Source: Azospirillaceae bacterium (GTDB taxonomy: Bacteria; Pseudomonadota; Alphaproteobacteria; Azospirillales; Azospirillaceae). Taken from it: DNA of 64,000 bases. The position numbers and the translations under genes are program-made. Below the pieces are notes generated by a model that was not told where the DNA came from, searched no databases, and saw nothing but the letters and a program-made list of their open reading frames with translations. Within the stretch, counting starts at the first letter, position 1, and each line of letters starts with the position of its first letter. Positions 14,627 to 34,300 of this stretch are shown here, piece by piece. The stretch covers positions 1-64,000 of the forward strand of contig JANQJV010000277.1 of NCBI GenBank assembly GCA_028281465.1, written 5' to 3'.

Positions 14627-16129
14627 ATGATCCCGCGCCGGGCCGCCCGGCCGCCTCCCGCTGAGTGCGTAGCCGAAGGGCCGAGGCTCTTGGCGGGGAC
14701 ACCGGTGCGCCGGGTCACAGCGGGACCGGACAAGGCCGCCGATCCAACTCCGGATCGCCGCCTTGCTGGTCTGATGGCCTTGCTGGAACTGGAACGCGAC
14801 GCCCGGCGCGCCACCACGCCAGCCGAGCTGACCTTCCTCATGGCCAACCGCACCCAGTGCGTGGTCGCGGCGGACCAGGTCGCGGTCTGGCGACAACACG
14901 GCGTTGGCGCGGTGCGGTTGGAGCGTGTGTCCTCCGTTGCCGGCATCGATCGCAGCGCGCCGTTCGTACCATGGCTGGAAGGCGTGATCGCAGCCGCACT
15001 GTGCGGTGCAACCAGCGACCGGGCCGGTGGGACGGCGGACGGCCCGGCTGTGGTCGCCCGGTCAATCGACGCCGACGCACTGGACAACAAGGGGTTGGCT
15101 GTGGCGTGGCCCGACTTTTCGCCACCGAATGGCCTGGTCTGCCCGCTCGACGGTGGCTTGGGTGTGCCGGCGGGGTTGTGGCTGGCCCGCGGCGGCGCCT
15201 GGAACGAGGCGGACCGGGTGCTGGTGGAGCGTCTGGCCGAGACCTATGCCCATGCTTGGCGCACCCTGGTCGGGACCGCAGGCCCTCGGCCACGCCGGCG
15301 CGTGTCGTGGCCGGTCTGGTTGGCAGCGGCTGTACTGGCGGCCGGTGTACTGGCGTTGCCCGTGCGCCAGACTGTCATGGCGCCGGCGGAAATCACTCCC
15401 ACGGCCCCGGTGGTGGTGACGGCACCTCTGGACGGTGTGGTCGCCACGGTCGCGATCGAGCCAGGACAGGCGGTTTCTTCAGGTGATGTGCTGTTTCGGC
15501 TCGACGATACGGGCCTGCGCAGCCGACTGGAAATCGCCGAAAAGGGCTTGGGCGTGGCACAGGCGGAACTGTACCGGGCGCGGCAGCTCGCCTTTGGCGA
15601 CGACGAGAGCCAGGCCGCTCTGGCCGTGCTGGAGGCCCGGGTGGCGTTGCGGCAGGCCGAGGTGGCACAGGCACGGACGCAACTGGTCCGCAGCACCGTG
15701 CGGGCGCCGCGTGCCGGAATAGCGTTGTTCGACGATCCGAGCGCTTGGCGCGGACGCCCGGTCGTCACCGGTGAACGGGTCATGCGGTTGGCCGATCCGG
15801 AGCGGGTCGAGGTCGCCGTCGCGCTTCCAGCGGCCGACGCGATCACCCTGGAACCAGGCGCCGCCGTGCGCGTATTTCTGAACACGGCACCGCTCGACCC
15901 TTTGCCAGCCACCTTGATTCGCAGCAGTTATGCGGCAACACCGACGGCGGCTGGCGTCCTCGCGTTCACCCTCGCCGCTCGGCTGGAACCGACGGCGGCC
16001 GACAACGCCTCGCCACCACCGCGCATCGGGTTGAAAGGCACGGCCGAGGTGTCCGGCCGGCGGACGGTGATGGCGCTGTATCTATTCCGCCGACCCCTGA
16101 CCGTGCTGCGCCGTTGGATCGGCTGGTAG
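14627..16129 (+). CDS. GAF-like domain - TM - HlyD-type adaptor (cassette 1)
   Basis: 500 residues; ATG 14627, 10 nt after the previous stop, with TGAGG upstream. Residues about 45-210 look like a degenerate GAF-type sensory domain (LMALLELERDARRATTPAEL opening helix, then alternating strands). One TM helix follows at about 225-247 (WPVWLAAAVLAAGVLAL). The rest is an HlyD adaptor: lipoyl half APLDGVVATVAIEPGQAVSS, coiled coil about 300-345, second half STVRAPRAGIALF, then barrel strands. Topology should place the GAF-like domain in the cytoplasm and the adaptor in the periplasm. Ordinary HlyD proteins have only a short cytoplasmic tail, so a large cytoplasmic domain is unusual. It might sense a ligand or contact a cytoplasmic energy source or substrate (inference). 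The paralogue in cassette 2 has two such domains. Confidence 0.8.
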   Translation: MIPRRAARPPPAECVAEGPRLLAGTPVRRVTAGPDKAADPTPDRRLAGLMALLELERDARRATTPAELTFLMANRTQCVVAADQVAVWRQHGVGAVRLERVSSVAGIDRSAPFVPWLEGVIAAALCGATSDRAGGTADGPAVVARSIDADALDNKGLAVAWPDFSPPNGLVCPLDGGLGVPAGLWLARGGAWNEADRVLVERLAETYAHAWRTLVGTAGPRPRRRVSWPVWLAAAVLAAGVLALPVRQTVMAPAEITPTAPVVVTAPLDGVVATVAIEPGQAVSSGDVLFRLDDTGLRSRLEIAEKGLGVAQAELYRARQLAFGDDESQAALAVLEARVALRQAEVAQARTQLVRSTVRAPRAGIALFDDPSAWRGRPVVTGERVMRLADPERVEVAVALPAADAITLEPGAAVRVFLNTAPLDPLPATLIRSSYAATPTAAGVLAFTLAARLEPTAADNASPPPRIGLKGTAEVSGRRTVMALYLFRRPLTVLRRWIGW

Positions 16130-16141
16130 GAGGCGCGAGCC

Positions 16142-18244
16142 ATGGACGCGGCGTTGCCGCCGCTGCGCACCGATCTGCACGTCCTGGCCGGCGCGCCGAC
16201 AGCAGATGGGTCGCCAACCTGGTTGGTATTCGACCCGGTGCGCAACCGATACTTCTCGATCGGCTGGCTGGACCGCGCGGTCCTCGCGGCTTGGCGGCCG
16301 GGGCCGGTGGAGAGCGTCGTGGCGGCGGTGGCGGAGTCAACCGGGCACGCTGTTCCGGCCGAGCAGGTGCACATTGTGGCGGCCTTCCTCGACCGGCATG
16401 GATTGATCGCCCGGCCGACCGCGCGCGGCACCGCAACCCTTCTAGCCAGGCATCGGACCGAGCAACGGCGGGGTTTGATGCAAATCGCCCACGCTTATGT
16501 GTTCTTCCGCATCCCGCTGGTTTATCCGGACCGGTTCCTGACCCGGGTGACTCCATGGCTGTCGGTTCTGTTCAGTCCAGCGGTCGGTTGGGGCCTGGCA
16601 GGTCTGGCCGGGCTTGGTCTGTATCTGACCGCGCGGCAGTGGGACGTGGCCTGGTCGAGCCTGCCCTACGTGTTTTCTTGGGACGGTGCGGCGCTGTCCG
16701 CCGCGGCAATCGCAGCGGTCAAGATTGCCCATGAGCTCGGCCATGCGGTCGCGGCCAAACGGTTCGGCTGCCGGGTGCCGTCCATGGGCGTCGGCTTCAT
16801 GCTGTTGTGGCCGATCCTGTACACCGACACCAGCGATACCTGGCGCCTAACCCGGCGCCAGCAACGCCTGGTCGTGGCGGCCGCCGGCGTGGCGGTTGAA
16901 CTTGCCGTGGCCGCGCTGGCCACCTTCTTGTGGAGTTTTTTTCCGGAAGGGCCGGTGCGTAGCGTGTTGCTGCTGCTGGCGACGGTGAGCTGGGTGATGA
17001 GCGTTGCGATCAACCTCAACCCATTCATGCGCTTCGACGGCTATTTCCTGCTATCCGATTGGTTGGATCTGCCCAACCTGCAGGAGCGGGCATTCGCCTT
17101 GGCACGTTGGCGGCTGCGCGAGACCCTGTTCGGGTTCGGTGATGCGGCGCCGGAATGGTTTGCGCCGCGGCTGCGCGCCTGGCTGATCGGCTATGCCGTC
17201 GCCACTTGGGTGTACAGATTTGTGCTGTACATCAGTCTGGCGCTGGCCGTGTACCACTATGTCTTCAAGCTCGCCGGCATTCTTCTTCTCCTGTTGGAGC
17301 TCGGTACGTTGATCGGTCGGCCGGTGCTGCGCGAACTCAACATATGGTGGCGCCGAGGCCGCCAGGTGGCGCCAGCCCACGGCCTGCGCACCCTGATTGG
17401 GCTGGGTGTGTTGATCGCTGTCGTGGCGATACCCTGGCCATCGCAGGTGTCCCTGCCCGCCATCCTGGTGTCGGCGGACCATGCCCGCTTGTTCGCCCCG
17501 GTGCCGTCGCGGGTGGTGGCGGTGGAAGTTGCGGTGGGCCAGGCGGTCCGGGCGGGAGACGTCTTGCTGGTGCTAGACAATCCCGATCTGGAACACGCGC
17601 GGGCCCAAACCCGGACCGAGATCGCCGCATTGCGCCACCAATTGGATCGCCGGGTCGCCCGCACTGACATCCTGACCAATATCGTCGTTTTGGAAACCCG
17701 TCTGGCGGAGAAACTGGCCGAGGCCGACGCGCACGACCGCCAGTTGGACGGTCTCGTGCTGACGGCACCCCTGGACGGCCGGGTGGCCGCTCTGGCCACC
17801 GGACTGCGGCCCGGCCGTTGGATCGGCCATCGTGATCCGCTGGTCGAATTGGTCGCCCCGGACCGGGCCCGTATCGAAGCCTATGTCACGGAGCGGGACC
17901 TCGCACGGCTGGACCGACGCCACGCAGCGGTGTTCCTGCCCGACCGGCTGGACGCTCCCCGACTGCCGGTGTCACGTCGAATGCCTGATGCCGTGCCCGT
18001 GCCTCGTTTGCCGCGTCCCGACCTGGCCAGCGTACACGGCGGTCCGATCGCAGTGCGCGAGGAGCCCGACGGCCTGATTCCAGACCAGGCGCTCTACCGG
18101 ATCGATTTCGATCCTGCAAACGCGGCGCCTTCGGTGCGCCAGACCATCACGGGTCGCATCCACATGGTCGCCGACAGCCAAAGCCTCATGGCCTGGATCG
18201 GACAACGCGTTTGGGCCGTACTGATCCGTGAAAGCGGGTTTTAG
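16142..18244 (+). CDS. M50 (site-2 protease type) membrane metalloprotease fused to HlyD-type domain (cassette 1)
   Basis: 700 residues; ATG 16142 behind AGGAGG, spacing 9. The N-terminal 85 residues form a small winged-helix-like domain resembling PqqD (WLVFDPVRNRYFSIGWLDRA). A membrane part with several TM segments (about 135-440) carries the M50 zinc motif H197-E-L-G-H201 and the distal Asp299 in NPFMRFDGYF, so catalytic residues are intact. The C-terminal part (about 445-700) has a lipoyl half (VPSRVVAVEVAVGQAVRAGD), a coiled coil and a second half (LTAPLDGRVAAL), as in HlyD adaptors. Proteins of this kind often sit beside HlyD and TolC genes without an ABC transporter. The protein could be a processing protease, a transport component, or both. 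It is last in the cassette. Confidence 0.88.
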   Translation: MDAALPPLRTDLHVLAGAPTADGSPTWLVFDPVRNRYFSIGWLDRAVLAAWRPGPVESVVAAVAESTGHAVPAEQVHIVAAFLDRHGLIARPTARGTATLLARHRTEQRRGLMQIAHAYVFFRIPLVYPDRFLTRVTPWLSVLFSPAVGWGLAGLAGLGLYLTARQWDVAWSSLPYVFSWDGAALSAAAIAAVKIAHELGHAVAAKRFGCRVPSMGVGFMLLWPILYTDTSDTWRLTRRQQRLVVAAAGVAVELAVAALATFLWSFFPEGPVRSVLLLLATVSWVMSVAINLNPFMRFDGYFLLSDWLDLPNLQERAFALARWRLRETLFGFGDAAPEWFAPRLRAWLIGYAVATWVYRFVLYISLALAVYHYVFKLAGILLLLLELGTLIGRPVLRELNIWWRRGRQVAPAHGLRTLIGLGVLIAVVAIPWPSQVSLPAILVSADHARLFAPVPSRVVAVEVAVGQAVRAGDVLLVLDNPDLEHARAQTRTEIAALRHQLDRRVARTDILTNIVVLETRLAEKLAEADAHDRQLDGLVLTAPLDGRVAALATGLRPGRWIGHRDPLVELVAPDRARIEAYVTERDLARLDRRHAAVFLPDRLDAPRLPVSRRMPDAVPVPRLPRPDLASVHGGPIAVREEPDGLIPDQALYRIDFDPANAAPSVRQTITGRIHMVADSQSLMAWIGQRVWAVLIRESGF

Positions 18245-18474: not shown

Positions 18475-20469
18475 CTAATCTCCGGTTCCATCCGGGGCAG
18501 TAAAGGCCATGGCCTCGCGTCGGCGCAGATCGGCACGCAGCAGCGCACGGCGGGTTTGGCGAGCTTGATGCTGGGCGAGCCACTGCAGCGGTCGAAAGCC
18601 CAGGGCCAGCAGCCGGCTTCCACCGGGCCAATAGCTCAGGAAGGCGGCAACCCGACGCAGGGTTTCGGGCACGAAGCGGCGCGGCAGACTGTCGTCCAGG
18701 CTGAGATAGGCCGCGGCCGAGCCGGGATCGCCCTGGCGGCCACAGCGACCGAACAACTGCCAATCGACACGGATGGCCTCGTGCCGTTCGGTGGCGATGA
18801 CGTGTAGTCCCCCCAGCTCTCCGACCCCCTCACCCAAAGCAATATCCGTGCCACGTCCGGCCATATTGGTGGCGATCGTCGTCGCTCCGCGTTGGCCGGC
18901 GGTGGCGACAATGGCCGCTTCTTCGGCATGGTGCAAGGCGTTGAGCACCTTGCATTCGACACCGCGGCCGCGCAGCCGCTCGGAAAGAGCCTCGCTCGCT
19001 TCGACACTACGGGTGCCCACCAGCACCGGCTGGCTGCGCTGTCGACAGGCCAAAACCGCCTCGGCCACCGCCTGCCATTTTTGCTCACTTTTGGCGAAAA
19101 CGCGGTCGGGTGCCAGTCGGCGACGGATAGGCCGATGTGTCGGGATCCGGACCACCGGCAGACCATACACGCCCCACAACTCCCCAGCGATGCCCTGAGC
19201 GGTGCCCGTCATACCGCACAGATGGGGGTAATGCCGGTAGAAGTGCTGGAAGCTCATGCGGGCGCGAATCTCGGTGGGGTCGGTGATCTCCACAGTCTCT
19301 TTGGCCTCGATCGCCTGGTGCAAGCCGGCGCTCCATGTGCGGCCCGGCATCATACGGCCGGTAAATTCGTCGACGATCACCACCTTGCCGTCGTCAATCA
19401 CGTAGTGCTGGTCGCAATGAAACAGCTCCTTGGCGAACAGGGCCTGCAGCACCAGGTCCTCCCGCCGCGTGGTGCCGCGCCAAAGGCTCGGAAGATTTTC
19501 CGCGGCATCGACCAGGGCCGCGGAGCCAGCGGCAGTCAGGCGGACCCGACGTTGCCCGACATCCACATGGTAGTGGCGACCACGCTCCAAGCCACACGCG
19601 ATGCGAAATCCAGCCAGCGCACCGTCTTTCAGGGGTGCATTCTCCGCCGGAAGCGCGATGATCAGCGGCGTGACCGCCTCATCGATCAGCACACTGTCGG
19701 CCTCGTCGACAACGGCAGTCCCCAGACCGCGCATCACAATCCCCCCAGCCGTATCATGCTCGCTGTCGAGTAGGGATTGCAGCAGGCGTCGGCTGGGATC
19801 GTGGGCATGCCCCAGGGCCAGTCGGTCGCGCAGAAAATCGGCCAGAATCTCTTTGCCGGTGGCATAGGTGACGTCGGCGGCATAGCCGGCTCGCCGTTCT
19901 GCCGGCGCCATACCCGAGATCACGCAACCCGCAGACACGCCACTGATGTCGAAGAGGGGCGCCTGCAGCTCGGCATCTCGTTTGACCAGATAGTCGTTGA
20001 CGGTGATGACATGGCAGGGTCGGCCGGTCCAGGCGAACAGCACGGCAGCCAAACCTGCGGTCAGCGTCTTGCCCTCGCCGGTTGCCATCTGCGCCAACGC
20101 ACCGCGGTACAGCGCCAGGGCGGCCATCAACTGGGCCGGATAGGGGCGCCGGCCGAGGGCACGGGCCGACGCCTCGGCAATCAGGGCCAACGCCTGGTCC
20201 AAGTGGGCGTCGGCCGATCTCGGGTGGCGACGGAAACGCTCGCGCACCTGGGCGAGCAGCCGGCGCAGCCGGTCGTCGCTCACACCGCAGAACGTGTGGC
20301 TGCGGGCGGCAGCGGCTTCGGCCTGCTCCCGCAGCCGGCGCGTCACCGTTCCACGCCGTGCATACAACCCGGCAAGCCCGTATGCCAGACCGTCCATACC
20401 GTCGGGCACCGGCGGCGGTCGGCGCTGACGGGCCTGGCGCAATTCGTCGGCAATCTGCTGGGCGGTCAC
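18475..20469 (-). CDS. shortened SecA-like preprotein translocase ATPase (cassette 2)
   Basis: 664 residues from GTG 20469, chosen because it overlaps the stop of the M50 gene as GTGA and has AAAAGG upstream; an upstream ATG at 20520 would overlap by 55 nt. SecA motor motifs are present: Walker A MATGEGKT at 128-135 (Lys134), Walker B and second motif VDEADSVLIDEA with Asp255 and Glu256, then VIVDEFTGRMMPGR, GMTGTA, NMAGRGTDI and GRCGRQGDPGS. A preprotein-crosslinking-type insert follows the DEAD box. Canonical SecA is roughly 800-900 residues. This one ends shortly after the second motor domain and lacks recognisable helical scaffold, wing and zinc-binding tail. It is unlikely to be the housekeeping SecA. 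As the last gene of an export cassette with no other ATPase, it is the best candidate for the energy source (inference). Confidence 0.88.
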   Translation of the reverse strand: MTAQQIADELRQARQRRPPPVPDGMDGLAYGLAGLYARRGTVTRRLREQAEAAAARSHTFCGVSDDRLRRLLAQVRERFRRHPRSADAHLDQALALIAEASARALGRRPYPAQLMAALALYRGALAQMATGEGKTLTAGLAAVLFAWTGRPCHVITVNDYLVKRDAELQAPLFDISGVSAGCVISGMAPAERRAGYAADVTYATGKEILADFLRDRLALGHAHDPSRRLLQSLLDSEHDTAGGIVMRGLGTAVVDEADSVLIDEAVTPLIIALPAENAPLKDGALAGFRIACGLERGRHYHVDVGQRRVRLTAAGSAALVDAAENLPSLWRGTTRREDLVLQALFAKELFHCDQHYVIDDGKVVIVDEFTGRMMPGRTWSAGLHQAIEAKETVEITDPTEIRARMSFQHFYRHYPHLCGMTGTAQGIAGELWGVYGLPVVRIPTHRPIRRRLAPDRVFAKSEQKWQAVAEAVLACRQRSQPVLVGTRSVEASEALSERLRGRGVECKVLNALHHAEEAAIVATAGQRGATTIATNMAGRGTDIALGEGVGELGGLHVIATERHEAIRVDWQLFGRCGRQGDPGSAAAYLSLDDSLPRRFVPETLRRVAAFLSYWPGGSRLLALGFRPLQWLAQHQARQTRRALLRADLRRREAMAFTAPDGTGD

Positions 20470-22610
20470 AACCGATACCTTTTCTGCATCACCTGGCTGG
20501 CAGTGTGCCAGAGCTGCCACGCCAGTGGCTGCCAGGGCAGATCCAGCCGCAGCACCCCCGAGCGTCCATGCAGCATGGTGACCGGGGCGATCGATGGCAG
20601 GTCAGCAAAGATTTGGAAGAACGGTTCGCGGCTGGTGCGGCCTTCGGGATCGTTGTGGGCGGTGGCGATATGGCCACCCCCCTGCCAGCCGAGGACCGCG
20701 GAGGGAAGCCTGTGCTGTTCGAAGGGAATGATATGCAGATTGCCGACCGGAACGTCAGTGTCGGCCTGGCCGCGCAGGCGCACCACGCCGCTCGCGGACG
20801 TGCCGTCGAAAAGGTCAGCGGCCTCTTCCTGCGTCAACACCGCCGAGAAGCGATACGCATCGGGCGATACAAGAAAGCCCAAAACCACACCGCGCTCGAC
20901 CCAGGTGCCCCGATGCGAGGCCAGTGCCGGCGCCACCCAAACACCGGGCTGGCTCGCCGTGACCGTCAGCGCCGCTTGCCGCTGCCGCAGGGCATCCAAC
21001 TTTCGACGCAACGCCTCTTGACGCCGGGCCATCGGCTCCATATCAGCGATTGCGTCGTTACGGGCGCGGTCGATCGCGGCGGCCGCCTGCGCCAGTTGTG
21101 CCTCGACAATGGCGATGTCGAACGCCAATTCACGATCGGTCAGCACCACCAGTTCGTCGCCCTCGGACACCTGTCGGCCGGAGGACACTTTGACGTCGGC
21201 AATAAAGCCGGGCGCCCCCGAGAACACCTGGGCATGGTGACGGGATTCCACGACGCCGCTGGCCTGTACGCCGTAGGGCAGCGGGAGCGCCGCAACGGCC
21301 ATCACCACGCCCCCCAGTCCACCCAGTCCCACCGTCAGGGCGCGAAGCCGGCGACCGGCCAGTTTAGGACTGTTGACTAGGAATGACAGAAAGCGGACCA
21401 GCGGTACCAACACGAGTGTCACCATCCATCCCAGGGCTATGATGATCCCCAGAACCAGGAACTCGTCCGCCACCACCAGCACAATTCCGAGCAATACCAG
21501 CATGCGGTAGGCTTGGCTGGCAAGACCGTAGCCGGTCAGCCACAATGCTTCGCTTCGGTTCTCAGACGGCGAGGCCGACGTCAAGTCGCCGAACCCCCAA
21601 CGCTCGGCCAGGTGTACGATCTGTTGGCGCGAGCGCTGGTAAAGGTTGGGAATATCCAAAAGATCGGACAGGATGTAATAGCCGTCAAACCGCAAAAGCG
21701 GATTGATGTTGAACACCAACGTCGATACCGAGGCCGCAATCATCACATTGAACGCCAGGGCATGGATGGTGCCGGCGCCGGTGGCCGCCCAGATCATGGC
21801 GGCAAGGCCCGCCACGAAGGCCTCGCCGATCATGCCGCCGGCTCCCACCAGCGCCCGCGCCTTGCGGTCACGCAACTGCCAACTGGACGAAGCATCCACA
21901 TAGGGCAGCGGAATGAACACCATGATCATCAGACCAACGGTGTGCACCTCACCGCCCAAATGGCGGCACAGCATCGCATGCCCGGCTTCATGCACGGTCT
22001 TGACCAGCAACAGGGCCAGATACAGCCAAGGGAGATTGCCGGGCGCCAACACGCCCGCAGCCGGATGCAGCAGGGCGTCCCAATTGTCCACCACGGCCTT
22101 CAGCCCCAGGGCCACGACCACCAACCATACCAGCAGACCGAGCGGGCTGAAGACCCGCTCCAGCACCGGCAGCAGACGGGTTAGCAGGTCCTGCGGATCG
22201 AACAGCCGCATGCGGAAAAACAGGATGTTCATCAATTGGGCGCGTAGTTCGCGTCGCCGCCGCTTCTGGCCGCGGCTGAAGATCCGTTCGCTGTCGGGAA
22301 CGTTGGTGAAATAGAGCAGTTCGTTGACGTGCAACTGACTGAGCAGCGTCACCACTTCTTCCTGGCCCGGGGCGGTGTCCGGAATGACCTCCAAGCATTC
22401 GTGCCACACCTCCTCAACGGTGCGGCTGGGTGTCAGTCGGGCGACGAAGGCATAGGCGGCGGGACGCACACGGAAGAAGCGGTTGTTGAAGCGATCGTGC
22501 AGAACATACCAATCCTCGCCGCGGAAGCGCTGTTTTCGGACATCCACAGACGGACGCAGGGACACTTCCAAACCGGATACACGATGCCATGACTCGCTGA
22601 AGGTGCGCAT
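20466..22610 (-). CDS. M50 (site-2 protease type) membrane metalloprotease fused to HlyD-type domain (cassette 2)
   Basis: 714 residues from ATG 22610, 2 nt after the preceding stop; a longer frame to 22724 would overlap the upstream gene by more than 100 nt. A PqqD-like N-terminal domain (about 20-95, WYVLHDRFNNRFFRVRPAAY) is followed by a multi-pass membrane region (about 150-455). It carries H207-E-A-G-H211 and Asp309 in NPLLRFDGYY, the complete M50 metal site. An HlyD-like periplasmic part follows (about 470-714), with lipoyl half APGFIADVKVSSGRQVSEGD and a coiled coil rich in Arg, Ala and Gln. It parallels the protein at 16142-18244 in order, length and motif spacing but has diverged in sequence, so this is an old duplication or separate acquisition. 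It is translationally coupled to the SecA-like gene. Confidence 0.9.
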   Translation of the reverse strand: MRTFSESWHRVSGLEVSLRPSVDVRKQRFRGEDWYVLHDRFNNRFFRVRPAAYAFVARLTPSRTVEEVWHECLEVIPDTAPGQEEVVTLLSQLHVNELLYFTNVPDSERIFSRGQKRRRRELRAQLMNILFFRMRLFDPQDLLTRLLPVLERVFSPLGLLVWLVVVALGLKAVVDNWDALLHPAAGVLAPGNLPWLYLALLLVKTVHEAGHAMLCRHLGGEVHTVGLMIMVFIPLPYVDASSSWQLRDRKARALVGAGGMIGEAFVAGLAAMIWAATGAGTIHALAFNVMIAASVSTLVFNINPLLRFDGYYILSDLLDIPNLYQRSRQQIVHLAERWGFGDLTSASPSENRSEALWLTGYGLASQAYRMLVLLGIVLVVADEFLVLGIIIALGWMVTLVLVPLVRFLSFLVNSPKLAGRRLRALTVGLGGLGGVVMAVAALPLPYGVQASGVVESRHHAQVFSGAPGFIADVKVSSGRQVSEGDELVVLTDRELAFDIAIVEAQLAQAAAAIDRARNDAIADMEPMARRQEALRRKLDALRQRQAALTVTASQPGVWVAPALASHRGTWVERGVVLGFLVSPDAYRFSAVLTQEEAADLFDGTSASGVVRLRGQADTDVPVGNLHIIPFEQHRLPSAVLGWQGGGHIATAHNDPEGRTSREPFFQIFADLPSIAPVTMLHGRSGVLRLDLPWQPLAWQLWHTASQVMQKRYRL

Positions 22611-22612
22611 GG

Positions 22613-24442
22613 CTACAACCAGAAATGAAGACGGAGGAAATCGATGGTGCGATGGAACGCGATCCACAATGGCGAGCGCGCCGACGCCTCCAACCGCACC
22701 AGGCCGCTCATGCCCGGCCGCCACCAGGCCGAAGAGTCACCGACCAACACCGCTCGGGCGACAAACACATTACCGTACTCGGACTTGATTTCCGCCATGG
22801 GGTTGATCGTGTCGATGCGCACCGGGAAGCGTACATCGGGACGGCTCAGGAACGATACTTCACCCACCGCGTCCTCGCCCACATCCTGGACGTCGCGTTC
22901 GTCCACATACACTTCGAAATAGAAGTCCTCCAACCGCATCACCTTGAAGAGAACGTCCCCCTTTTTGACAGGGGCGCCGTGCACGCCTTTGTGGTCGCCC
23001 TCGACCAGAATGCCGTCTATGGGCGACGTCATCTCGGCATGGGACAGGTAATAGCCGACCCGTTCCAGCCTGGCGCGGGCCTGCTCGACCTGCGCTTCGG
23101 AGATCAACATGTCGGCCAATTGCCCTTGGGCGCGGGCCTTGTCGGCGGCCCGCGCGAAGCGGTGGATATCGGCGGTGGCCTCGGATTCCTTCAGATACAA
23201 TTCGGCCGTGTCCAGGGTCACCAAGGTCCGCCCCTTCTCCACCAAATCGCCCACCTCGACCTCGACCGTCTCGATATAGCCGTCGAAGGGCACCGGCAGA
23301 TAGGCCAGTTGGTCTGTTTTCAGCAGCGCTGGTGCATCAACGGTGTAGCCAATCCGACCGAAGACGCCGAACAGCACCAACGCCACCCCAGCGGCAATCG
23401 TCGCCTTGGCCGCGGTATGGCGCGGCCGGCTCAGGGCAGCGGCGGCTTCGCCTGCGAGGTGGCGCAGGCGCTGGTGCCAAGGTCGGTCGTGCCGATAGAG
23501 GTTGGTCAACCACCTGGAGAGCAAGTTGGCTGCCAAGTGCAGCAACCGCAGTTCATCGTCGGTGAATGTGCGGTCGGCGCGCTCGCACACCACCACCCCC
23601 ACCGGTTCATCATCCTGGTGCAGCAGCAGTGACAGGATTTGCCGCAAGCTTTCGCGGCGAGCGAAACGTTCGTGGGCAAACATCACGGCGCCGCGGGTTT
23701 CGCTACCTGGCCATATCAGGCTTTCATCCTGATCGATGGCCTCTTCCATTGCTGCTTCAAGGCCACGCACCGAATCTGTGCGGACATCGAAGCGCTCGAT
23801 ATGGCTGATGGCACGCACCCGCACTGCCGCCTGGCGATCGCTCCATCCCAAGGAGACGCGCATGCAGCCAAAGCGGGCCGCCAGTTCGTTGCATAGCGTC
23901 ACCGCGGAGGCGGCGAAACTATCCTTGCCCACCACCGTCACGATGAGGTCCAACACTTTCGCCAAGTCGATGGTGTCATGACCGCCATTGGCCCCGTCGG
24001 TTGGCGTGGCGGGAATATCGGCGATCAAGTGCAGACGGATGGCCGCGTCACGCTGCTGCGCCTGGGTATGCCGGGTCAGCAGTACCGCCACCACCGCCGC
24101 CGGCTTCCGCCCTTCCAAAGCAACGCCAATCATCACGGCATTGGGCTCCACCGGCTCCATGGCGTAACCATTGGCGGTCGCACGGTCGGCGAGGCGGGTG
24201 GCACAGGACAGAAGGTGACCCCGTTCGGTTTCAGCGATCCCGACCGCGTCGTGCACCTCCGTTGCTTGCCACTCCCCGTCCGAACGGGCTACCACGACCG
24301 CGAGGTCGCCACGACACAGCATGGCGGCCACGGCAGCAAAGCGGGCATGCAGGTCCGAGGCCCCGGCCCCGAGGCGTCGCAGCTCGCGCACAGCCACCAA
24401 GACGGATCGCACATCGGGATGGGACCGCGATTGGGTGATCAT
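22613..24442 (-). CDS. tandem GAF-like domains - TM - HlyD-type adaptor (cassette 2)
   Basis: 609 residues from ATG 24442, which overlaps the previous stop as ATGA; an upstream ATG at 24478 is less likely. Two GAF-type domains appear at about 15-150 and 157-310. The second is clearer, with LCNELAARFGCMRVSLGWSD and VGVVVCERADRTFTDDELRL near its end. A TM helix lies at about 342-362 (TIAAGVALVLFGVFGRIGY). The adaptor follows: lipoyl half VPFDGYIETVEVEVGDLVEK, a helical hairpin, second half MTSPIDGILVEGD and barrel strands including VYVDERDV. The GAF domains should be cytoplasmic. I see no catalytic output domain, so any signal would act through the adaptor or partner proteins. It is the counterpart of the 500-residue protein of cassette 1, with one extra GAF-like domain. 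Confidence 0.85.
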   Translation of the reverse strand: MITQSRSHPDVRSVLVAVRELRRLGAGASDLHARFAAVAAMLCRGDLAVVVARSDGEWQATEVHDAVGIAETERGHLLSCATRLADRATANGYAMEPVEPNAVMIGVALEGRKPAAVVAVLLTRHTQAQQRDAAIRLHLIADIPATPTDGANGGHDTIDLAKVLDLIVTVVGKDSFAASAVTLCNELAARFGCMRVSLGWSDRQAAVRVRAISHIERFDVRTDSVRGLEAAMEEAIDQDESLIWPGSETRGAVMFAHERFARRESLRQILSLLLHQDDEPVGVVVCERADRTFTDDELRLLHLAANLLSRWLTNLYRHDRPWHQRLRHLAGEAAAALSRPRHTAAKATIAAGVALVLFGVFGRIGYTVDAPALLKTDQLAYLPVPFDGYIETVEVEVGDLVEKGRTLVTLDTAELYLKESEATADIHRFARAADKARAQGQLADMLISEAQVEQARARLERVGYYLSHAEMTSPIDGILVEGDHKGVHGAPVKKGDVLFKVMRLEDFYFEVYVDERDVQDVGEDAVGEVSFLSRPDVRFPVRIDTINPMAEIKSEYGNVFVARAVLVGDSSAWWRPGMSGLVRLEASARSPLWIAFHRTIDFLRLHFWL

Positions 24443-25272
24443 TCCGGCAATCTGATCCTGCCCGATACGCCCGGCCAAATGCGGCCGTCGCGGTTGTCAA
24501 AACCGATGCGGATGCGAACAAGCCGGCTGGCCGGATCCGCCACCGGCGACACCGATAGCAGGCGACCGTTTCGTTCCACCCATTTTTCGCCGGCCTGGAC
24601 CTCGAAGCGCAGGTCGGCGCCCATCATGAGAGTGCGGGCGAACTTCTCTTCGACATTGACGGTCAGGTGGCAATATCTGGGATCGACCAAGCGCACCACA
24701 GTCTCGCCGACGCCAGCGCGCTGCCCAACATCGGTGTTCAACTCGGTGACCACGCCGGAGATGGGAGCGACCAAGGTGCGCTGGGCCTTCCTCTGCCGAG
24801 CCATCTCGTGCTCGACTTTCTCCCGCGCCTCTTGGGCAATCAACTCCCGTTCCCTTGCCGTCACTTCCTGGAAGTCAAGTTCCAGTCGCTTCACTTCCTC
24901 GGCACTGACTGCGCCGGAGTTATTGAACAGTCTCCGTGAAGTATTCAGAAAGGATGCGACCGTTGATTTGCGAGCCCGCACCGAGTCAAGCTGCGAGGTG
25001 TCCTCGACGATCAACCGTCGACGTTCCACCTCCAAGGTCTCGATACGCGAGTCCAGAGCGAGCAGTGGGTTACCCTTGTCGACCCACTCCCCTTCCGTCA
25101 CCGCCACCTGCTCGACGATGCCGTCGACCGGCAGGCTCAAGTCGAGGTCGTGCACCGGTTCGGTCACTCCGACGAACAAGCGTTCCGCGGCACCGACGGC
25201 AGCCGCCTGCAGCACGAGCCCGACCGAAAGCGCCAACCATGCCGGCCGCAGCCCCGTCCGCCCGGACGTCAT
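24439..25272 (-). CDS. periplasmic HlyD-type adaptor (cassette 2)
   Basis: 277 residues; ATG 25272 overlaps the TolC-type stop as ATGA. A signal peptide (LALSVGLVLQAAAVGAA) should release a soluble or loosely bound periplasmic protein. The lipoyl half LPVDGIVEQVAVTEGEWVDK is followed by a long coiled-coil hairpin (about 75-165, rich in Glu, Arg and Ala), then LVAPISGVVTELNTDVGQRA, and barrel strands to the end. The size is small for the family, which fits a minimal adaptor. It stands in the same position as the adaptor of cassette 1. Its stop overlaps the start of the GAF-HlyD gene, so the three adaptor-bearing proteins should be made together. Confidence 0.88.
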   Translation of the reverse strand: MTSGRTGLRPAWLALSVGLVLQAAAVGAAERLFVGVTEPVHDLDLSLPVDGIVEQVAVTEGEWVDKGNPLLALDSRIETLEVERRRLIVEDTSQLDSVRARKSTVASFLNTSRRLFNNSGAVSAEEVKRLELDFQEVTARERELIAQEAREKVEHEMARQRKAQRTLVAPISGVVTELNTDVGQRAGVGETVVRLVDPRYCHLTVNVEEKFARTLMMGADLRFEVQAGEKWVERNGRLLSVSPVADPASRLVRIRIGFDNRDGRIWPGVSGRIRLPE

Positions 25273-26876
25273 AGGTCGCCCGCCAGTCGCAGTTGCACTC
25301 CGTATTTGTCCAGCAATGTTCCCTCGGCCAGCTCCACGGCCGCGACCGCCTTCTCGTATGCCACCTGGGCCCTCAATTCGGCGATCCGGGCGTCGTTCAA
25401 TGTTTCTTCCTTTTCGATCACGTCACTAACGCGCGATCGTCCGGCCTGGTAGCGGTCCGTTTCGGCGTCGACGATGGCCTGCGACATCTCGACCTGCACA
25501 CCCCGCAAGGCCAATTCCTGTCGCGCTTCCTGGGCTCTGCGGATTTTGGTGTCCAAGGTGTTGCCAATCGCCAGCTCGGTGGCGTCCAATTCGACCATCG
25601 CCTGGCGGCGGCGAACCTTGGCGGCACGCAGATTGGCATTCGCCCGGTCGTTGTTGAGCGGCATGCGGAATTCAACCCCCGCGGTCCAGGTGGGATAGTC
25701 ACCATCGCGCAACCGACTGTGGGGGCTACCCCGGTTCAGCCCCAGGCCAGCCCGGCCGTAACTGGCCATGGCATCGAGCTGTGGCAACGCTTGGTTGCGG
25801 CTGTAATCTTCCTCCAGCGTCGCCCTGACCACGGCCTTCTGGGCGATGATGTACTCAGGCCAGTGGCGTAGCGCTCGATCCACGCTCCGTTCGAGGCTGA
25901 ACCGGTGGTCTCCTTGGGCAAACGCGGCTCCCACCGCCACTAACCCCATATCTGAGTCGACACGGCGCAGGTTGAGCAGACCGCGCATTCTGTTGGTCTC
26001 ATTGATGATGGCTTGGTTGGCGGCGGCCAGTTCGGCCTCACGCATCGCGACAGCCGCGGTGGCTTCCAGCACATCGCTGCGCGGCACTTTGCCGAATCTC
26101 AGCTTTTCATTTGCGATTTCCCGCAGCATACGACGACTGTCGTAAGACTTCTGCCGAATATCCCTCAGCATCTGTGCCTGATATAAATCCCAAAATGCAC
26201 TAACGGCAGTGCCAGCAACTTCAAGGGCGCGCAGTCGATAGCGCAGAAAGGCGATGTCGCGATCCATTTCTGCCAGGCGTTTTTTGGCGGTGGTGGCGTC
26301 CATGCCGAAATTGCGAAGCAAGGGCTGACGCAAGCTGATTTCGAAAATCGCTTGATATTCGGTGTTATAGTCGCCGCGGTATCGGGATCGTACCAGATCG
26401 TTGTCACGGTCGATGAGAGTGTAGTCCACCGCCCAGCGCGCGCCAGTGGGTATCAATCCACTAACGCCAGCTTGGTATGAGTTGGACGTCTCGCGGAACT
26501 CATCACGAAATGCTTGGTCGTAATAATCTGTGGCTGTGTTAGGGTTGTGCAGGTTTTCGTAGTTGTACGATGCGAATATCTCAGGGTCGTAGAGTGCGGC
26601 CTCTGCCTTGGCTCGTTCGTTGGCGACCTCCCAGTCCAGTTCTTGGAAAATGATCCGGGCATTGCGGCGGCAGACGAGCGGAACGAGCTGTCTGAGATCG
26701 AATTCTAGATCGCTGCCCACCAGGAGCGACTGCAAATCCTGATCAATGGCGGCTGACGACATGGCCCCCGACGCGGGTAGGCGATCTGGGGAGGAGATGG
26801 CTTCGTCAGCCGCAGCAGGCGTCAAAACCCAAATGGCGGACAGTGCCGCCCCTATCACGATACGCCGGAGTTGCAT
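25269..26876 (-). CDS. TolC-type outer-membrane factor (cassette 2)
   Basis: 535 residues; ATG 26876, 31 nt after the SapC stop, with a GGGGG run as a weak ribosome binding site. A classical signal peptide (RRIVIGAALSAIWVLTPAAA) replaces the lipobox seen in the cassette 1 protein. The OEP architecture is complete: first repeat about 60-290 with LRQPLLRNFGMDATTAKKRL, second repeat about 310-520 with VEFRMPLNNDRANANLRAAK and RYQAGRSRVSDVIEKEETLN, both motifs typical of the family. It would form the outer-membrane duct used by the adaptors encoded immediately downstream. Confidence 0.9.
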   Translation of the reverse strand: MQLRRIVIGAALSAIWVLTPAAADEAISSPDRLPASGAMSSAAIDQDLQSLLVGSDLEFDLRQLVPLVCRRNARIIFQELDWEVANERAKAEAALYDPEIFASYNYENLHNPNTATDYYDQAFRDEFRETSNSYQAGVSGLIPTGARWAVDYTLIDRDNDLVRSRYRGDYNTEYQAIFEISLRQPLLRNFGMDATTAKKRLAEMDRDIAFLRYRLRALEVAGTAVSAFWDLYQAQMLRDIRQKSYDSRRMLREIANEKLRFGKVPRSDVLEATAAVAMREAELAAANQAIINETNRMRGLLNLRRVDSDMGLVAVGAAFAQGDHRFSLERSVDRALRHWPEYIIAQKAVVRATLEEDYSRNQALPQLDAMASYGRAGLGLNRGSPHSRLRDGDYPTWTAGVEFRMPLNNDRANANLRAAKVRRRQAMVELDATELAIGNTLDTKIRRAQEARQELALRGVQVEMSQAIVDAETDRYQAGRSRVSDVIEKEETLNDARIAELRAQVAYEKAVAAVELAEGTLLDKYGVQLRLAGDL

Positions 26877-26907: not shown

Positions 26908-27657
26908 TTAGGCTGATTTCAGAGTGGTCTCGCCGTTGCCGGGTGCAGGGGCCGTCCGTTTGGCCTGTTCAGACGTCAGTCGTTCAATCTGCGCCAGAGA
27001 GATCAGGTGACTATATATGACTGATATATAACGATTCTTGCGGAGATCCAGAAAGACATCATCGGTGAGGCTATTGAGGCGGTCCTCGTTGATGGCATAG
27101 CAGCCAGAAACATTGCGCAGGACGGCACCATCACGGACTCTGAGATTGAGCGGAGCGAAAAGGTTGTGCTCCTTCATCTTGCGGCAGAAGGCAGCGGTCA
27201 TGGTCTCCATCTGCTGCAGCTCGATCAGATAGCTCTTGGCACGATCCAGCGCCGACGCGACCTCGCCGCCTTCGTCGAACAGCGGCTCACCGACTTCATC
27301 ACCCAACAGGTCGCTGGCTTCGTCGATGCAAACGGTGAAACGATCCCCTTCCTCGGTACGCGCCAATGTAAAGGGATAGCGGCGCAACATTGCCGGTACG
27401 TAGGACGCGTTCCACCGTCCGTTTTCGTCGACATAGAGGTTGTCGCCGGGCTTGAAGCCGAGCAACGCCACTGCCAAGAAGTCATCGGCACCTGGCTGTT
27501 CCAAGAAAACGATAGGATACGAAGCCGATGCCACGGAGAACTCTTGGATCATGAGTGCAGAAATATGGATGCCTTTCGCGAACCCATAGGATTGGAAAGA
27601 GCGAACTCTCTTTCCGCGATGACGGTCTAGGTTTACTGGAACCACTTGCTCAAACAT
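26908..27657 (-). CDS. SapC-family protein
   Basis: 249 residues; ATG 27657 with AGGGAG 6 nt upstream, 20 nt after the stop of the giant gene. The sequence matches the SapC family in length and pattern: VPVNLDRHRGKRVR at the start, YPIVFLEQPGADDFLAVALL, WNASYVPAMLRRYPFTLART and an acidic C-terminal half. There is no signal peptide, so it should be cytoplasmic. The family was named for a gene linked to the Campylobacter fetus S-layer, and its biochemical role is not established. Its place between the giant surface protein and the export genes suggests a dedicated accessory or chaperone for that substrate (inference). Confidence 0.85.
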   Translation of the reverse strand: MFEQVVPVNLDRHRGKRVRSFQSYGFAKGIHISALMIQEFSVASASYPIVFLEQPGADDFLAVALLGFKPGDNLYVDENGRWNASYVPAMLRRYPFTLARTEEGDRFTVCIDEASDLLGDEVGEPLFDEGGEVASALDRAKSYLIELQQMETMTAAFCRKMKEHNLFAPLNLRVRDGAVLRNVSGCYAINEDRLNSLTDDVFLDLRKNRYISVIYSHLISLAQIERLTSEQAKRTAPAPGNGETTLKSA

Positions 27658-27677: not shown

Positions 27678-28310
27678 TTACAGTGCCATCTCTTCGATCC
27701 AGAAGACGAATGGCCTGTTCTCATTGATAGCATTGAACTGTCCTATCTGACCTGGCCCCAGGCCGATGGCACGAGTCGTGTTTTCGAACATAGACAAGTC
27801 AAAGAGCTCTGCGGCTTCATACCCCTCGATGTCTTGCTCTGAGTCCAAACCGGCAAACTCAGAGCGAGGTTCGGGTATCAAAGACTGGACATCGGCCCGC
27901 TCGTTCGGATTCTCGAGTGTTGACGGACCATTGAAGAAACCCGCCACTAGATTGAGCGCATCGACATCAGGGCGGATATAAGTGTCTTGGTAACTGAGAT
28001 CTATGCTGCGGAACCACGTCGCTACACTGAAGTAACACTCTGTTGCCAACTGGGTCATGGTCGCCTCGGCATCAAGCGTGTTCAGGAGGGCGTTTCTGGT
28101 CGATGACGACATGTCTTTGTTGTTAACCACCTGCAAGTAAACGGTCTGGAACTCTTCCAGGTAGCCAAAAGTCGTGGCCGACACGTGGTTGCGGCGTATC
28201 CAACCCTGGCCCAGGTTGTCATTTGTGGCCAGATACAGCGACGAGATTTCACTTTCGAGAGCCGCATCGAAAGCGGGCTGATAGGCTCCTCTGTCGACAC
28301 CTTGGGTGCC
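27678..28310 (-). other. non-repetitive C-terminal domain of the giant protein
   Basis: The final 210 residues contain no beta-solenoid repeats. They are mixed helical and acidic: ALESEISSLYLATNDNLGQG, a Tyr-rich FGYLEEFQTVYLQVVN stretch, then an acidic tail ending FVFWIEEMAL. The domain lies directly before the SapC gene. It has no LPxTG, PEP-CTERM or autotransporter-barrel features. It could be a terminal export or anchoring domain, or a ligand-binding tip (inference). Confidence 0.6.
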
Positions 28311-31300
28311 GAACACCGGTCCCCTTCCGACGATGGTGAGGGCATGGCCGTACACGTTGATTGAACGGTCTCCGTCGCTGTCACGGAGGGTGTCATTGGA
28401 CATCGACACCACCTGCAGATTGCCAGCGCTGCCCTCGGTACCGCGGGCATCCAGCACCGCCAGTCGCAGGCTGTCACGGGCCCGATAATGGATGTCACCG
28501 CCAGCCGTGCGCGCGTAGGTGCCAGCGGCCATGATGTTGGTTCCGCTCAGCGCCTCGGTTTCGATGCTGCCACCGTCGGTAAGGATGTTGGCGTTCTGCA
28601 GGAACCAGTTATCGGCGACCACGCGCACGAAGCCCCCGCCCATGGCTTGAACACCCAGGTTATCGGCGGTCACAGTGCCGGGATCGACGGTTATCGAACC
28701 ACCAGCCAGCACCTCGATATTGCCGCCGGCGGTGGTGGTCAGATCGCTCCAGCCGCCTGATTGGGTGGTGGCGGACGCATGGCTGCCGACCCGCTCCACT
28801 GTGACCGACACGTGGGTGATGGTCACATCATCGCTTTCGGAGATATAGGCGCCCCCTGTCCCGGCCTTCAGGGCCAGGGTCGCGACCATCGTTTCGATGT
28901 GGTTGGACGATGCACCGATGCCGATGCCAGCTTGCATGAAGACGCCCAGAGCAACCACATCCACCATGGTATCGCCGCTTGACTCCTCGTCGACGATCGA
29001 GCCACCTGCCAGGATTTTGACAAAGGCAGTGCCGGCATCCAGGAGTTCCACCGTCAGATCGCCGGTCAGCGCCTGATAACGGATGTCCTGGTTCGCGGTC
29101 TGGGCCATGGCGCCGTCGGCCATGGTCAAGCTTGTGCCCGCCTCGACATCGATGGTGCCGGTGCCCAGGGTCACGATATCCGCGATCCCCGACTGGGTGA
29201 TCTGGCTGGCAGCGATCACCGTGACGTGACCGCTGCCGCCGTCGATCTTGCCCATCAGGGCCACCGACGCGCCCGTCGAGCGGAGCAGCAGGTTGCCCGT
29301 CCCGGCCGCCTGCACACCAACGTCGTCGACGGTGTCGGCACCCTCGGTCACCGTCAGTGCTCCGACCGCTTGCAGCACGATGGCGCCGCCGTTCGTGGTG
29401 ATCAGGTCGCTCTGCGCCGCGTCGGTCGGCGTCGAAGCGATCGCCGCATCGGAACCGACGCGGTTGACCGACACCGGCCCGACCGCGGCCACCGACACGG
29501 CGGTCGCTTCGGACAGGAAAATGCCCGCGCTGTCGCCAAGCGCCGTGACACGGTCGGCGTCGATGTCCAGGTGGTCGCCGGCCAGGGCCACGCCCTGGCC
29601 CGCCGCCGCCGCCGAAAGACGCACGCCCGAGGCCACCACATCGGTGGTGGCCGTCCCGGCGTCACGGATCGATCCGCTCGCGGTGGTGAGGCTGACAAGG
29701 CCGGTCGCGGCGTCCAGGCCGGTCAGGGTGATGGTGTCGGCCGCCGCGTAGCGGATGTTGCCACCGGCCGTCCGGGTGGTGGCACCGTCGGCCATGGTGA
29801 TGAACGTGCCGGCCTCGACATCGATGGTGCCGGTGCCGCCGGTCACCATGTCGCCGGTCGCCGTCTGCGTCACCGAGGTGGCGGCCTGAAGGCTGACATG
29901 GCCGCTGCCGCCATCGACACCGGACTGGATCGCCACATCGGCGCCGGTCGAGCTCAGCAGCACGGTGCCGGCGCCGGCCGCCTGCACGCCGAGCGCATCC
30001 GCATCGCCACCGTCGGTCACCGTCACCGTACCCCCGGCCACCAGCACGATGGCGCCGCCGTTCGTGGTGATCAGGTCGCTCTGCGCTGCATCGGTCTGCG
30101 GACTCAGGGTATCGAGCGTGGTCACGCGCTGGACGGTGCCGCTCACCGCTGCCACCTGGATGGCATCGGTCTCGGACAGGAATAGGCCACCGGCCGCCGC
30201 CAGACCGCTCACGCTCGTCACGGAAATGTCGAAATGGTTCGAGCCGGTGCCCACGCCGCCGGCTGAGGCCGCCAGCCGCAGATTGGCTGCCGAGACGTCG
30301 ACGGCGCTGTCGCCGCCGTCCACCACCGAACCGGCCGTGGAGATGAGGCTCACCGTTCCCGTGCTGGCCGAAATACCGGTCAAGGTCAGCAGGTTGGTGC
30401 CCCGATAGCGGATGTTGCCGCCGTCGGTGCGGGCGTGGACACCGTCGGTGATGGTGACATTGCCGCCGACATTGGCTGCGGCCACAGCATCGACGTCGAT
30501 CGATCCGGAGGCCCCGGTGCTTTCCAGATGCCCACCGGTGTTCTGGGCGATGTTGCCGCCGGTGGCCAGGACACTCACATAGCCGCGTCCGGCCAACACG
30601 GTTGCCTGAAGGTCGATGCTGCCGGACACCGTCTCCAATCGGATCTGCCCGGTGGCGGTGGAGCGCACGCCCACCTGGCCCAGCACCTGGAGTTGTCCGG
30701 CATCGACCACCGTGTTCAGGGTGCCGGACGCCCCCTCGGCATTGAGACCGCCGGCGGTCACCACCAGGCCGTCGGTCTCATGCACGAAGCCGCCGCCGAC
30801 ACCGGTCAGGGTATAGGTCAACGAGGCAATGGACGTGTTCAGATAATCGGCGGAGGTGCCGATGCCGGTCGCCGCCGTCAACGTCACCGCCGTCACACCA
30901 CCGCTGGCATCGCCGCCAATCAGGTTCGATGTCTCGGCCGTCAGATTGTCGGTGATCGCGCCCGTAGAGGCGGTGATGTTGATCGATAAATCCGCTTCGA
31001 CGACACTAACCAGCACATTCGTTTGGGCCGTCAAGCTTACCTCACCGGTGTCACCGGCCGCGATCACGCTCACAGTGCGGGTACCATCGGCCATGGTGAT
31101 AGCCCCGGTGGTCGCCCTGCCGGTGACGGTGCCGCCCGCCGAAGTGATGTTGGCCTGCTGGTTGACCGCTGCGGCGGTGAAGTCGATTTGAGTCTGGCCG
31201 GAGCCGCTGATCACCGCCGTGTTGGTTAGGGTACCGGTGGCCGTGAGGGTGATGGTGCCGGTGGTCGACGTCACCACCTGATTGACCGTCAGGTCCATGG

Positions 31301-34300
31301 TGGTGCCGGCGGTGGTCACGTCGATGGCGCCGGTGCCGGATGTGACGATGCCCGATCCCGTTCCGAGCACCGTGATCGTTCCTGAGGTGGTGGTCAAAGT
31401 GATATTGCCGGTACCGGCGGCGTTGTCTTGCAGCAGCCGGTTGACCGAAATGTTGCCGCCTGCCGCCACCTCGTTGACGGTGATATTGCCGCTGGTGCCG
31501 TTCACTTTGGCGTCGATGACCTCAAGCTGGGTCCAGGACAGCGAGATGTCCTCCGACGCCTCCGCGGTCAGAGTGGCGGCGCGCACGGTTTCGGCGCTGT
31601 CACCGTCACTGGCATCGGCGACCTGCCGAATCCTGCCGGTACTCGCGAAAAATGTGGCGTTCTGGGTTCCCCCGGCACCGACTTCGGTGGTGTTGTTCAG
31701 CGTGATGGTGTCGACCGCGTCCAACGTCAGCGTGTCGGTGGTCGCGAAGGTCTGGTTGACGTCCGTGTAATCCACGACGTCGATCGACCCACCGTAGATG
31801 CTGGTCGGATCGGTGAAGACCGCCGTGCCGGTCAACGCACCGATGCGCACGCGTCCGGCCGACGTCGCCGTCTCGGCATGGCCGGTGGTACTGTCCACGC
31901 GACCGATGACGATCGACGAGAAGCCGTCCTGCAGCGCCTGAATATCGGCCACCGTCAGGTTCAGGTTGGTGGCCACCTCGCCGGTCGGCGCCGCAAGGTC
32001 GATCGACATGGACGCCGTCGTCGGACGCAGGGTGATGGTCTGGGTGCCGGCCACCGACCCAGCGCCGCCATTGAAGTCGATCTCGTCCGCCTCGATCAGG
32101 ATATTGCCGGCAACGCTGACGCTGCCGTCGAACTGCGCGACCGCCGCCCCGTTGATGGTCAGGCTGCCGCCGTTCTGGATGGTCAGGCCGCCCTTGAACC
32201 ATACCGTCCCGGTGGCGGTGATGCTCAGATTGCCGGCCACCACCACTGTGCTGTCGAATGTGACGTCGCCGGCTTGGGTGATGGTGAAGCCTTCCAGCGC
32301 ATCGACCGATCCCACCGGCCCCGTGATCTGGATCGCGCTGCCCACCCCGGCGGCCAGCGTCAGCGTGTCGTCGCCGGCAACATTGTCGCCGCCCAGAAGA
32401 TGCGTGGCATCGCCGCCCAACTGAATGGTGCCGGCCGCCGTCACCGAGCGGGCGCCGGTAACTTCGATGGAATCGCTGATCAGCAGATCGCCACCGTTGT
32501 TGATGTCCGCCGCCAGGGTGGTGGTTTGCCCCGAGCCGTAAATGTAGATCGACGCACCGGAGGTCGTGGTCAGGTTGCCCATGATGCTGACGTGACCACT
32601 ACCGCCGGTTTTCTGACGCAGCACCAGCGTATCCTGGAAGGTGACCGCAGTGGTGGGCGAAGCCGCATCACCGATCGTAATGTGGTTTGTCGCCGTGGCA
32701 CTGCCGATGACGATCTGGCTGAAGCCGTTTTGCAGATTGCCGATCTCGGTGCTGTCCAGGTACATCGCACCCGTTGCGCCAGCACTGACCGTTCCGACCA
32801 CGATATCGCGGGTGGCCGTGCGCGTCGTCAGATGCAGCTCCGCTCCCGCGCTTCGCACCCTATCGTTGATGGTGATGTCGTCGGCGACGATACCGATATT
32901 GTCGCCAGCACCATCCACCGCCGAATTGATGACCTGCTCACCGCTCAGTGACACCACATTGGTGGCGCCGCCGCGCGAGCCGGCGCCCTCACCGCTGCCC
33001 TTGAGCTGGACCGATTCCGCCGTGAGCACTTTGACCGCATTGCGCTCGGCGCTGTTGAGCGTCAGCAAATTGGCATCCACCAGCAGGGACAGTGGGCTGT
33101 AGGTGAAGCCGGACACCGGCGCGCCGATGGCGTTGCGCGCCGTCAGGGTCATTTCGCCGTCCGAGGTCCGCAGATAGGGGTCGGCCGCCGTCCGCAGCAC
33201 CGTGCCGTCGGCCAGCGGATCGCCGGCCGAGGCGCCGGACACGGTGATGACCCCGGTGGTGGCGTCGATGGTGAACAGACCGTTGCTCATCGCCCATTCG
33301 ATGGCCGAATCGAAACGGCCGTCGACCTGGCGCCACGTTGTCGCCGAGGGGGCGTTGAGAATGGACCCCAGGGTTGCCGTCACGTCGATGCCGCCCGCGC
33401 CAAGGACCGTGACGTCGGCGCCGAAGGTAACGTCGCCGGCCTCGGCGGTGATGGAAACACCGCCACCGGTGGTTGCGATGGCGCCGCCCACGGCAACGCC
33501 GGTGTGCCCGGTCCCGCCGGCATACACCGTCACCGCGCCGCTGGTCGCCGAAATGCCGCCGCTCGCGACCGTGATGGCGCCCGCAACCGTTTCCACCGTG
33601 ACATTGCCCGCCGCCGACTGGTCGATGCGGCTGACGCTCACGCCATCGGTCTCCTCGACCCAAATGTCGCCGCCACCGCTGTTGGACAGCTCCAACGCCG
33701 CCACGGTGGTCTCCAGTGCGTTGCCCGAGCCGATGCCGCCCACCGCCGTGATCTTTAGGGTTGCGTTGGCGGCCGCCACGTCGCTCGGACTGTCGCCGGC
33801 GTCCAACACTGCGCCGCCGGCGGTGATGGCGAGAATGTCCGACGCGGTCGTCCGCAGCTTGCCCACCGTCACGGCGCCGCCGGCCGTGAGGGTGATGGCG
33901 CCGCTGCCGGCCTCGATCACCGTGCCGTCGGCCATGGTCAGAGCGCCACCGGCGTTGAAGGACACACCGCCGCTGGTCGCGGTGACGTCGGCGTCCACCC
34001 CCAGCGTCATGCTGGTGCCCGCGGTCAGAGCCACCGCTCCGCTGCCGGTCACGATGGCCCCGCTCAACGCCAGCGCCCCGCCGGCCTGCAGTGTCACTGC
34101 CGCCGCGCCGGACAGACGGATGGCGCTGTCGACCGTCAACGCCCCGGCCGTGGTAACGATGCTCACTGCCGCGCCGGCCTGGTTCTGGGTCAGCGACGTC
34201 ACCGTCACGCCGTCCGCCTCGGTCAGGGTCACCGCACCGCCCGCGGTGATCGACAGCGTATCGGCCTCGATGCTGCCAGAGATGCTGCCGTTCGCCGCCG

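Follow-up and report, generated by a model that had tools for sequence, protein, structure and literature searches.

Introduction

According to Kamneva, Poudel and Ward (2015, PMC4452313), a protein with GAF, HlyD and biotin_lipoyl domains is encoded in a conserved locus together with a secondary SecA_DEAD protein, an M50 protein and an HlyD protein. The locus was found in several phyla, for example as META1p2402-2399 in M. extorquens AM1. In this bacterium, the GAF gene was expressed in exponential growth, and the rest of the operon was barely expressed or not at all. A regulatory and sensory role was suggested, and the function of the GAF-HlyD protein was described there as unclear. Literature searches found no follow-up of that work on this machinery and no secretion experiment on any member.

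The window analysed in this study is the whole stretch of 64,000 nucleotides. Its SecA_DEAD, M50, HlyD and GAF-HlyD genes adjoin one another and thus reproduce the four-protein locus defined in that paper (PMC4452313). Because the architecture had been reported there, the GAF-HlyD fusion is not new, and the window adds a member. The terms giant, SapC, cadherin and DUF4347 do not occur in the main text of the paper, and the sections consulted describe no SecA-free form. Beyond the fusion, we add the adjacency to giant genes, the association with LEPR-XLL proteins, a second type without SecA, and the result that SecA docking is not general.

The window adaptor also resembles HlyD of type I secretion and the efflux adaptors AcrA, MexA and MacA, which have periplasmic hairpin, lipoyl and barrel domains, one N-terminal transmembrane helix and a TolC partner. 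Unlike these proteins, it carries a GAF pair of about 320 residues, predicted to be cytoplasmic, and unlike type I and tripartite efflux systems, its operon has no ABC, RND or MFS pump. The giant proteins of the window carry N-terminal features of LEPR-XLL proteins (NF012209) and DUF4347 proteins (PF14252). A literature search found no paper linking either family to this machinery. These loci bear on the bacterial export of proteins 8,000 to 19,000 residues long where no pump can be recognised. They offer a concrete list of components, together with a candidate leader and a domain for control from the cytoplasm. Our best reading is that the GAF region acts on the cytoplasmic side as a switch or as an assembly module, within an exporter of giant proteins that is as yet uncharacterised.

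Architecture and topology of the adaptor

The adaptor and its parts are as follows.
22613..24442, minus strand: tandem-GAF / HlyD periplasmic adaptor, 609 aa (Pfam, AlphaFold2, fold search)
24020..24412, minus strand: GAF-A, predicted degenerate GAF, residues 11-141 (hhalign, alpha/beta order in the AlphaFold2 model, fold matches, weak Pfam matches in homologues)
23486..23986, minus strand: GAF-B, conserved, residues 153-319 (Pfam PF01590; pLDDT mostly >90)
23360..23416, minus strand: single transmembrane helix, residues 343-361, N-terminus inside (hydropathy, charge bias, helix in the model)
22673..23344, minus strand: periplasmic adaptor part, residues 367-590 (Pfam, AlphaFold2, fold search)

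The reading frame is open, and its ATG start overlaps the stop codon of the HlyD gene upstream. The start of the M50 gene, set by comparison with homologues, lies only a few bases from the adaptor stop. From the N-terminus, the order is a degenerate GAF, a conserved GAF, one transmembrane helix and an AcrA/MacA-type adaptor. In the Pfam search, GAF-B matched PF01590 over residues 182-309 (E=6.9e-7, above the curated cut-off), and the HlyD part matched HlyD_D23 (2e-16) and HlyD_3 (2.9e-10). The adaptor family comprised 74 members, of which 73 came from genome contigs and the remaining one is the window protein. The contigs were scanned with a four-member adaptor alignment, as an eight-adaptor alignment was too divergent. 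HlyD_3 was matched in all 74 members and Pfam GAF in 69.

The AlphaFold2 model had a pLDDT of 89.9 for the whole adaptor and of 83.9 for residues 1-322 alone. A fold search against the PDB with the full-length model returned the adaptor part only, and the cytoplasmic part was therefore modelled alone. The adaptor part matched MacA, AcrA and MexA with E to 7e-15; its lipoyl, hairpin and barrel domains follow one transmembrane helix, the arrangement by which HlyD/AcrA adaptors are defined. The cytoplasmic part matched GAF proteins (phytochromes and the tandem GAFs of PDE5A and PDE2A) with E of about 1e-8. The tandem superposition was loose (query TM-score <0.4), so the match concerns the domain fold and not the domain arrangement. 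The window adaptor is 10-14% identical to these proteins and differs from them in having no catalytic, kinase or DNA-binding output.

GAF-A of the window protein gave no match in the Pfam GAF search. However, its profile aligned to the family's own GAF-B over 48 columns (hhalign, P=1.6e-5), and weak Pfam GAF matches were found in 5/7 homologues tested. The profile and the model indicate that residues 11-141 are a second, degenerate GAF. The first-pass annotation had counted two GAF-like domains, one in this adaptor and one in its paralogue; the latter was confirmed, and the former has to be raised to two.

The net charge is +2.8 before and -0.8 after the helix at about 343-361, and the N-side is more positive in 93% of the 74 family members. 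The GAFs are predicted to be cytoplasmic because of this charge bias. Cytoplasmic GAFs joined to an HlyD-type adaptor, as claimed in the first-pass annotation, thus agree with Pfam, structure prediction, the PDB fold search and the charge bias. The structure prediction suggested there as a check returned a GAF fold, and its statement that the chain has no kinase, cyclase or DNA-binding output also held.

Conservation inside GAF-B

The most conserved motif of GAF-B is the following.
23729..23752, minus strand: AMEEAIDQ, residues 231-238, AM[DE]EAxDQ in the family (family alignment)

Conservation in GAF-B was highest at residues 213-238, strand b3 and helix a3 (mean KL 2.34). For comparison, the mean KL was 2.15 for the adaptor part, 0.98 for the first helix of GAF-B and 1.47 for its last helix. 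In GAF folds, strand b3 and helix a3 usually border the ligand pocket, and the first and last helices usually pair GAF dimers. Because the dimer-type helices are less conserved, a ligand or a fixed partner at the 213-238 face appears from the alignment more plausible than dimerisation alone. A ligand signature was not identified in the adaptor GAFs. The motif was absent from the paralogue family described below and lost in three divergent members without SecA (L165, L169 and L178), which makes a single ligand common to all GAF adaptors unlikely.

It is hardly credible that the GAF region is a non-functional relic. The degeneration of GAF-A and the few members without it would fit such decay, but S213, E234, D237, Q238 and P245 are near-invariant among relatives from several phyla that are mostly 19-29% identical to the window protein.

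Neighbouring genes and giant proteins

The genes around the adaptor are as follows.
18475..20520, minus strand: short SecA-like ATPase with DEAD, PP_bind and P-loop, without wing/scaffold domain (Pfam)
20466..22610, minus strand: membrane protein with M50 peptidase and HlyD parts and a PqqD-like N-terminus (start from homologue comparison)
24439..25272, minus strand: second HlyD-type adaptor without GAF (Pfam)
25269..26876, minus strand: TolC-type outer-membrane channel (Pfam OEP, 1.5e-33)
26908..27657, minus strand: SapC family protein, its position often taken by DUF3467 in relatives
27678..63986, minus strand: giant protein of 12,102 aa, predicted substrate (ORF; adjacency across loci)
63903..63968, minus strand: LEPR-XLL N-terminal motif (LEPRLLLSAD) of the giant protein (NF012209, E=1.8e-8)

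The cassette order varied little across annotated plasmids and 120 further loci: giant, DUF3467/SapC, GAF-HlyD, M50, SecA-like, HlyD and sometimes TolC. The M50 gene was near the adaptor in 106/108 testable loci, and tandem-GAF adaptors nearly always shared the operon with a short SecA-like gene. No ABC transporter was found among the window genes scanned or in the annotated cassettes of L026, L027, L226 and L228. That the adaptor belongs to a secretion locus, as first supposed, is supported. The SapC gene at 26908-27657 fills the place of DUF3467 in many relatives, and the two may be interchangeable accessory parts.

The HExxH motif and its partner Asp were invariant in the M50 proteins (50/50), and PqqD (PF05402) was matched in 16/50 of them; the window M50 protein gave no PF05402 match in the Pfam search. 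In RiPP pathways, domains of the PqqD type bind leader peptides. Because HExxH and Asp are kept and PqqD occurs in 16/50, the M50 protein is the likelier leader receptor, and the GAF region would be the control module. The Pfam searches of 20 short SecA-like proteins (the window and 19 relatives) gave DEAD, PP_bind and P-loop only, and none matched the SecA wing/scaffold model. Because of this missing match, these proteins probably work not quite like SecA.

An ORF of 1,500 aa or more, counted as giant, stood upstream of the adaptor on the same strand in 56/79 loci and on the opposite strand in 7/79, and 23/79 loci had no giant ORF in the tested upstream position. Some of the largest proteins of bacteria are encoded beside adaptor loci. 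The N-terminal motifs of the giants in four plasmids were FEPRVLLSAD, LEPRVLLNAD, LEPRLLLSAD and MEPRVLLSAD, and a LEPR frame lay within 14 kb of the adaptor in 25 cases. Among 80 genomes, with presence called at E<=1e-3, LEPR-XLL was found in 24/26 with a tandem-GAF adaptor, in 4/28 that had only the paralogue and in 0/26 that had neither adaptor. The Fisher test of the first against the last group (p=1.5e-12) is descriptive, because the genomes were grouped by earlier searches, are a non-random set and are uncorrected for kinship. The giant proteins are probably the exported cargo of the adaptor locus. The LEPR motif was also seen at G465:C115:112865-112924, in an open frame of 19,427 aa adjoining a tandem-GAF adaptor.

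A second operon type without SecA

The window also contains a second set of genes.
1481..11008, minus strand: DUF4347 giant of 3,175 aa with LEPRYMFDAA start and caspase-like C-terminus, predicted second-type substrate
12131..13711, plus strand: TolC-type channel (Pfam)
13591..14616, plus strand: HlyD adaptor (Pfam)
14627..16129, plus strand: paralogous single-GAF HlyD adaptor, 500 aa (Pfam, profile comparison)
14813..15253, plus strand: GAF-like domain of the paralogue, about residues 63-209 (profile-profile comparison)
16142..18244, plus strand: M50-HlyD protein (Pfam)

The second type consists of a DUF4347 giant with an LE[PS]R-x-x-F-D start, TolC, HlyD, GAF-HlyD and M50. The set is complete in the window, with the giant on one strand and the other four on the other. 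For the 270-aa protein at 11233-12045, there was no Pfam match. The paralogue itself gave no Pfam GAF match. Its family profile and the GAF profile could be aligned over 131 columns (P=1.9e-7), and Pfam GAF matches were found in 6/20 of its relatives (E up to 0.05). DUF4347 was present in 24/28 paralogue-only genomes and in 1/26 genomes with neither adaptor (p=3e-10, descriptive for the same reasons as above).

The second type was found on plasmids of Azospirillum, Escherichia (E. coli), Citrobacter, Hafnia and others. In L226 (NZ_CP060066.1), the operon at 6067-23445 encodes a 3,668-aa DUF4347/cadherin-like giant, TolC, HlyD, a GAF-like HlyD and M50. In four loci of one genus (L207-L210), the paralogue adaptor stands beside a hybrid histidine kinase of about 1,700 aa and a GGDEF-EAL protein, and the neighbourhood lacks an M50 gene.

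GAF domains and SecA

The first-pass annotation had suggested that the GAFs may dock a cytoplasmic motor such as the SecA-like protein. The short SecA-like gene in the operon of nearly all tandem-GAF adaptors and the loss of the GAF-B motif in the three divergent SecA-less members are consistent with such docking. However, the paralogue type also has a GAF-like domain, and a SecA-like gene was found near its operon in 0/17 testable loci outside the window. Eight genomes with the second type only had the housekeeping SecA alone, as did G576, which has the tandem-GAF form. Each tested genome with a SecA-type locus held an extra short SecA; G419, with two such loci, held two. The tandem GAF occurred without SecA in the locus in L100, L161 and L163, and L161 and L163 retained the GAF-B motif with no SecA gene nearby. 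Conversely, the SecA-containing loci L159, L162, L164 and L176 encode single-GAF adaptors in which the N-terminal GAF is absent.

Docking as the general role of the GAFs was therefore rejected after three kinds of test. The second-type cassette occurs in complete genomes with the housekeeping SecA only, and single-GAF adaptors coexist with SecA-like proteins. As an account of the GAF pair, a docking site for the motor is improbable, and it could apply within the SecA type only.

Proposed role of the adaptor

We propose that the protein serves as adaptor, at the inner membrane, in an exporter dedicated to giants with an N-terminal LEPR motif. By family resemblance, its HlyD part, the second HlyD protein and TolC would form the periplasmic conduit. 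The membrane M50 protein, with a PqqD-like N-terminus in part of the family, probably receives the LEPR leader and may cut it. In the LEPR-XLL type, force would come from the short SecA-like ATPase, as proposed by Kamneva et al. (2015, PMC4452313). With its conserved b3/a3 face, GAF-B may bind either a fixed partner in the cytoplasm or a small molecule, the latter being the other suggestion of the first-pass annotation. Through the single transmembrane helix, the tandem GAF would then signal that assembly or opening of the conduit is permitted. GAF-A may have decayed to a scaffold. The separate expression of the GAF gene in M. extorquens AM1 (Kamneva et al., 2015) counts in favour of this explanation. 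Its observed part comprises the architecture, the topology bias, the conservation of the locus, the association with giants and the occurrence of the GAF independently of SecA. Transport, substrate identity and switching are what we infer here, and we hold the whole explanation, an exporter of LEPR-motif cargo with the GAF pair as control module, tentatively, at slightly below an even chance. A broader proposal is held with more doubt: Gram-negative bacteria may have two sister ABC-independent machines for LEPR-leader giants, one with a short SecA (LEPR-XLL) and one without (DUF4347), both with a PqqD-like/M50 leader receptor-protease and a GAF-bearing adaptor as cytoplasmic gate. Since the laboratory strain M. 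extorquens AM1 has the first type, according to Kamneva et al. (2015), and E. coli plasmids carry the second, the role of the GAFs is directly testable.

The GAFs might instead be a constitutive assembly scaffold with no small-molecule ligand, which oligomerises the adaptor or holds the PqqD-like/M50 protein and the leader. We consider this rather unlikely, although a serious candidate. In both types, no partner is as constant as the M50 gene, GAF-A is kept in most members although degenerate, and GAF domains frequently dimerise. Nevertheless, conservation is lower in the helices usual for GAF dimers than elsewhere in GAF-B, and the paralogue of L207-L210 has no M50 gene nearby.

By analogy with LapD, which controls the adhesin LapA, the GAF region might sense a signalling nucleotide such as c-di-GMP. 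The hybrid kinase and GGDEF-EAL protein adjoining L207-L210 would suit this, as would the related, SecA-less L169 and L178, where a hybrid histidine kinase and a REC-GGDEF-EAL protein directly follow the cassette. However, c-di-GMP genes were not clearly enriched in a neighbourhood scan of 147 loci: a strong match was seen in only about 10/147, from two lineages and scattered cases, which is near the estimated chance rate in such genomes, and L169 and L178 are exactly the loci in which the GAF-B motif is lost. Nucleotide sensing is thus very unlikely, and the control module of a giant-protein exporter remains our preferred reading. This arrangement behind a SecA-less tandem-GAF cassette was seen at 8080-12985 in L169 and 13035-17579 in L178, and the REC-GGDEF-EAL proteins of the two loci are 55% identical.
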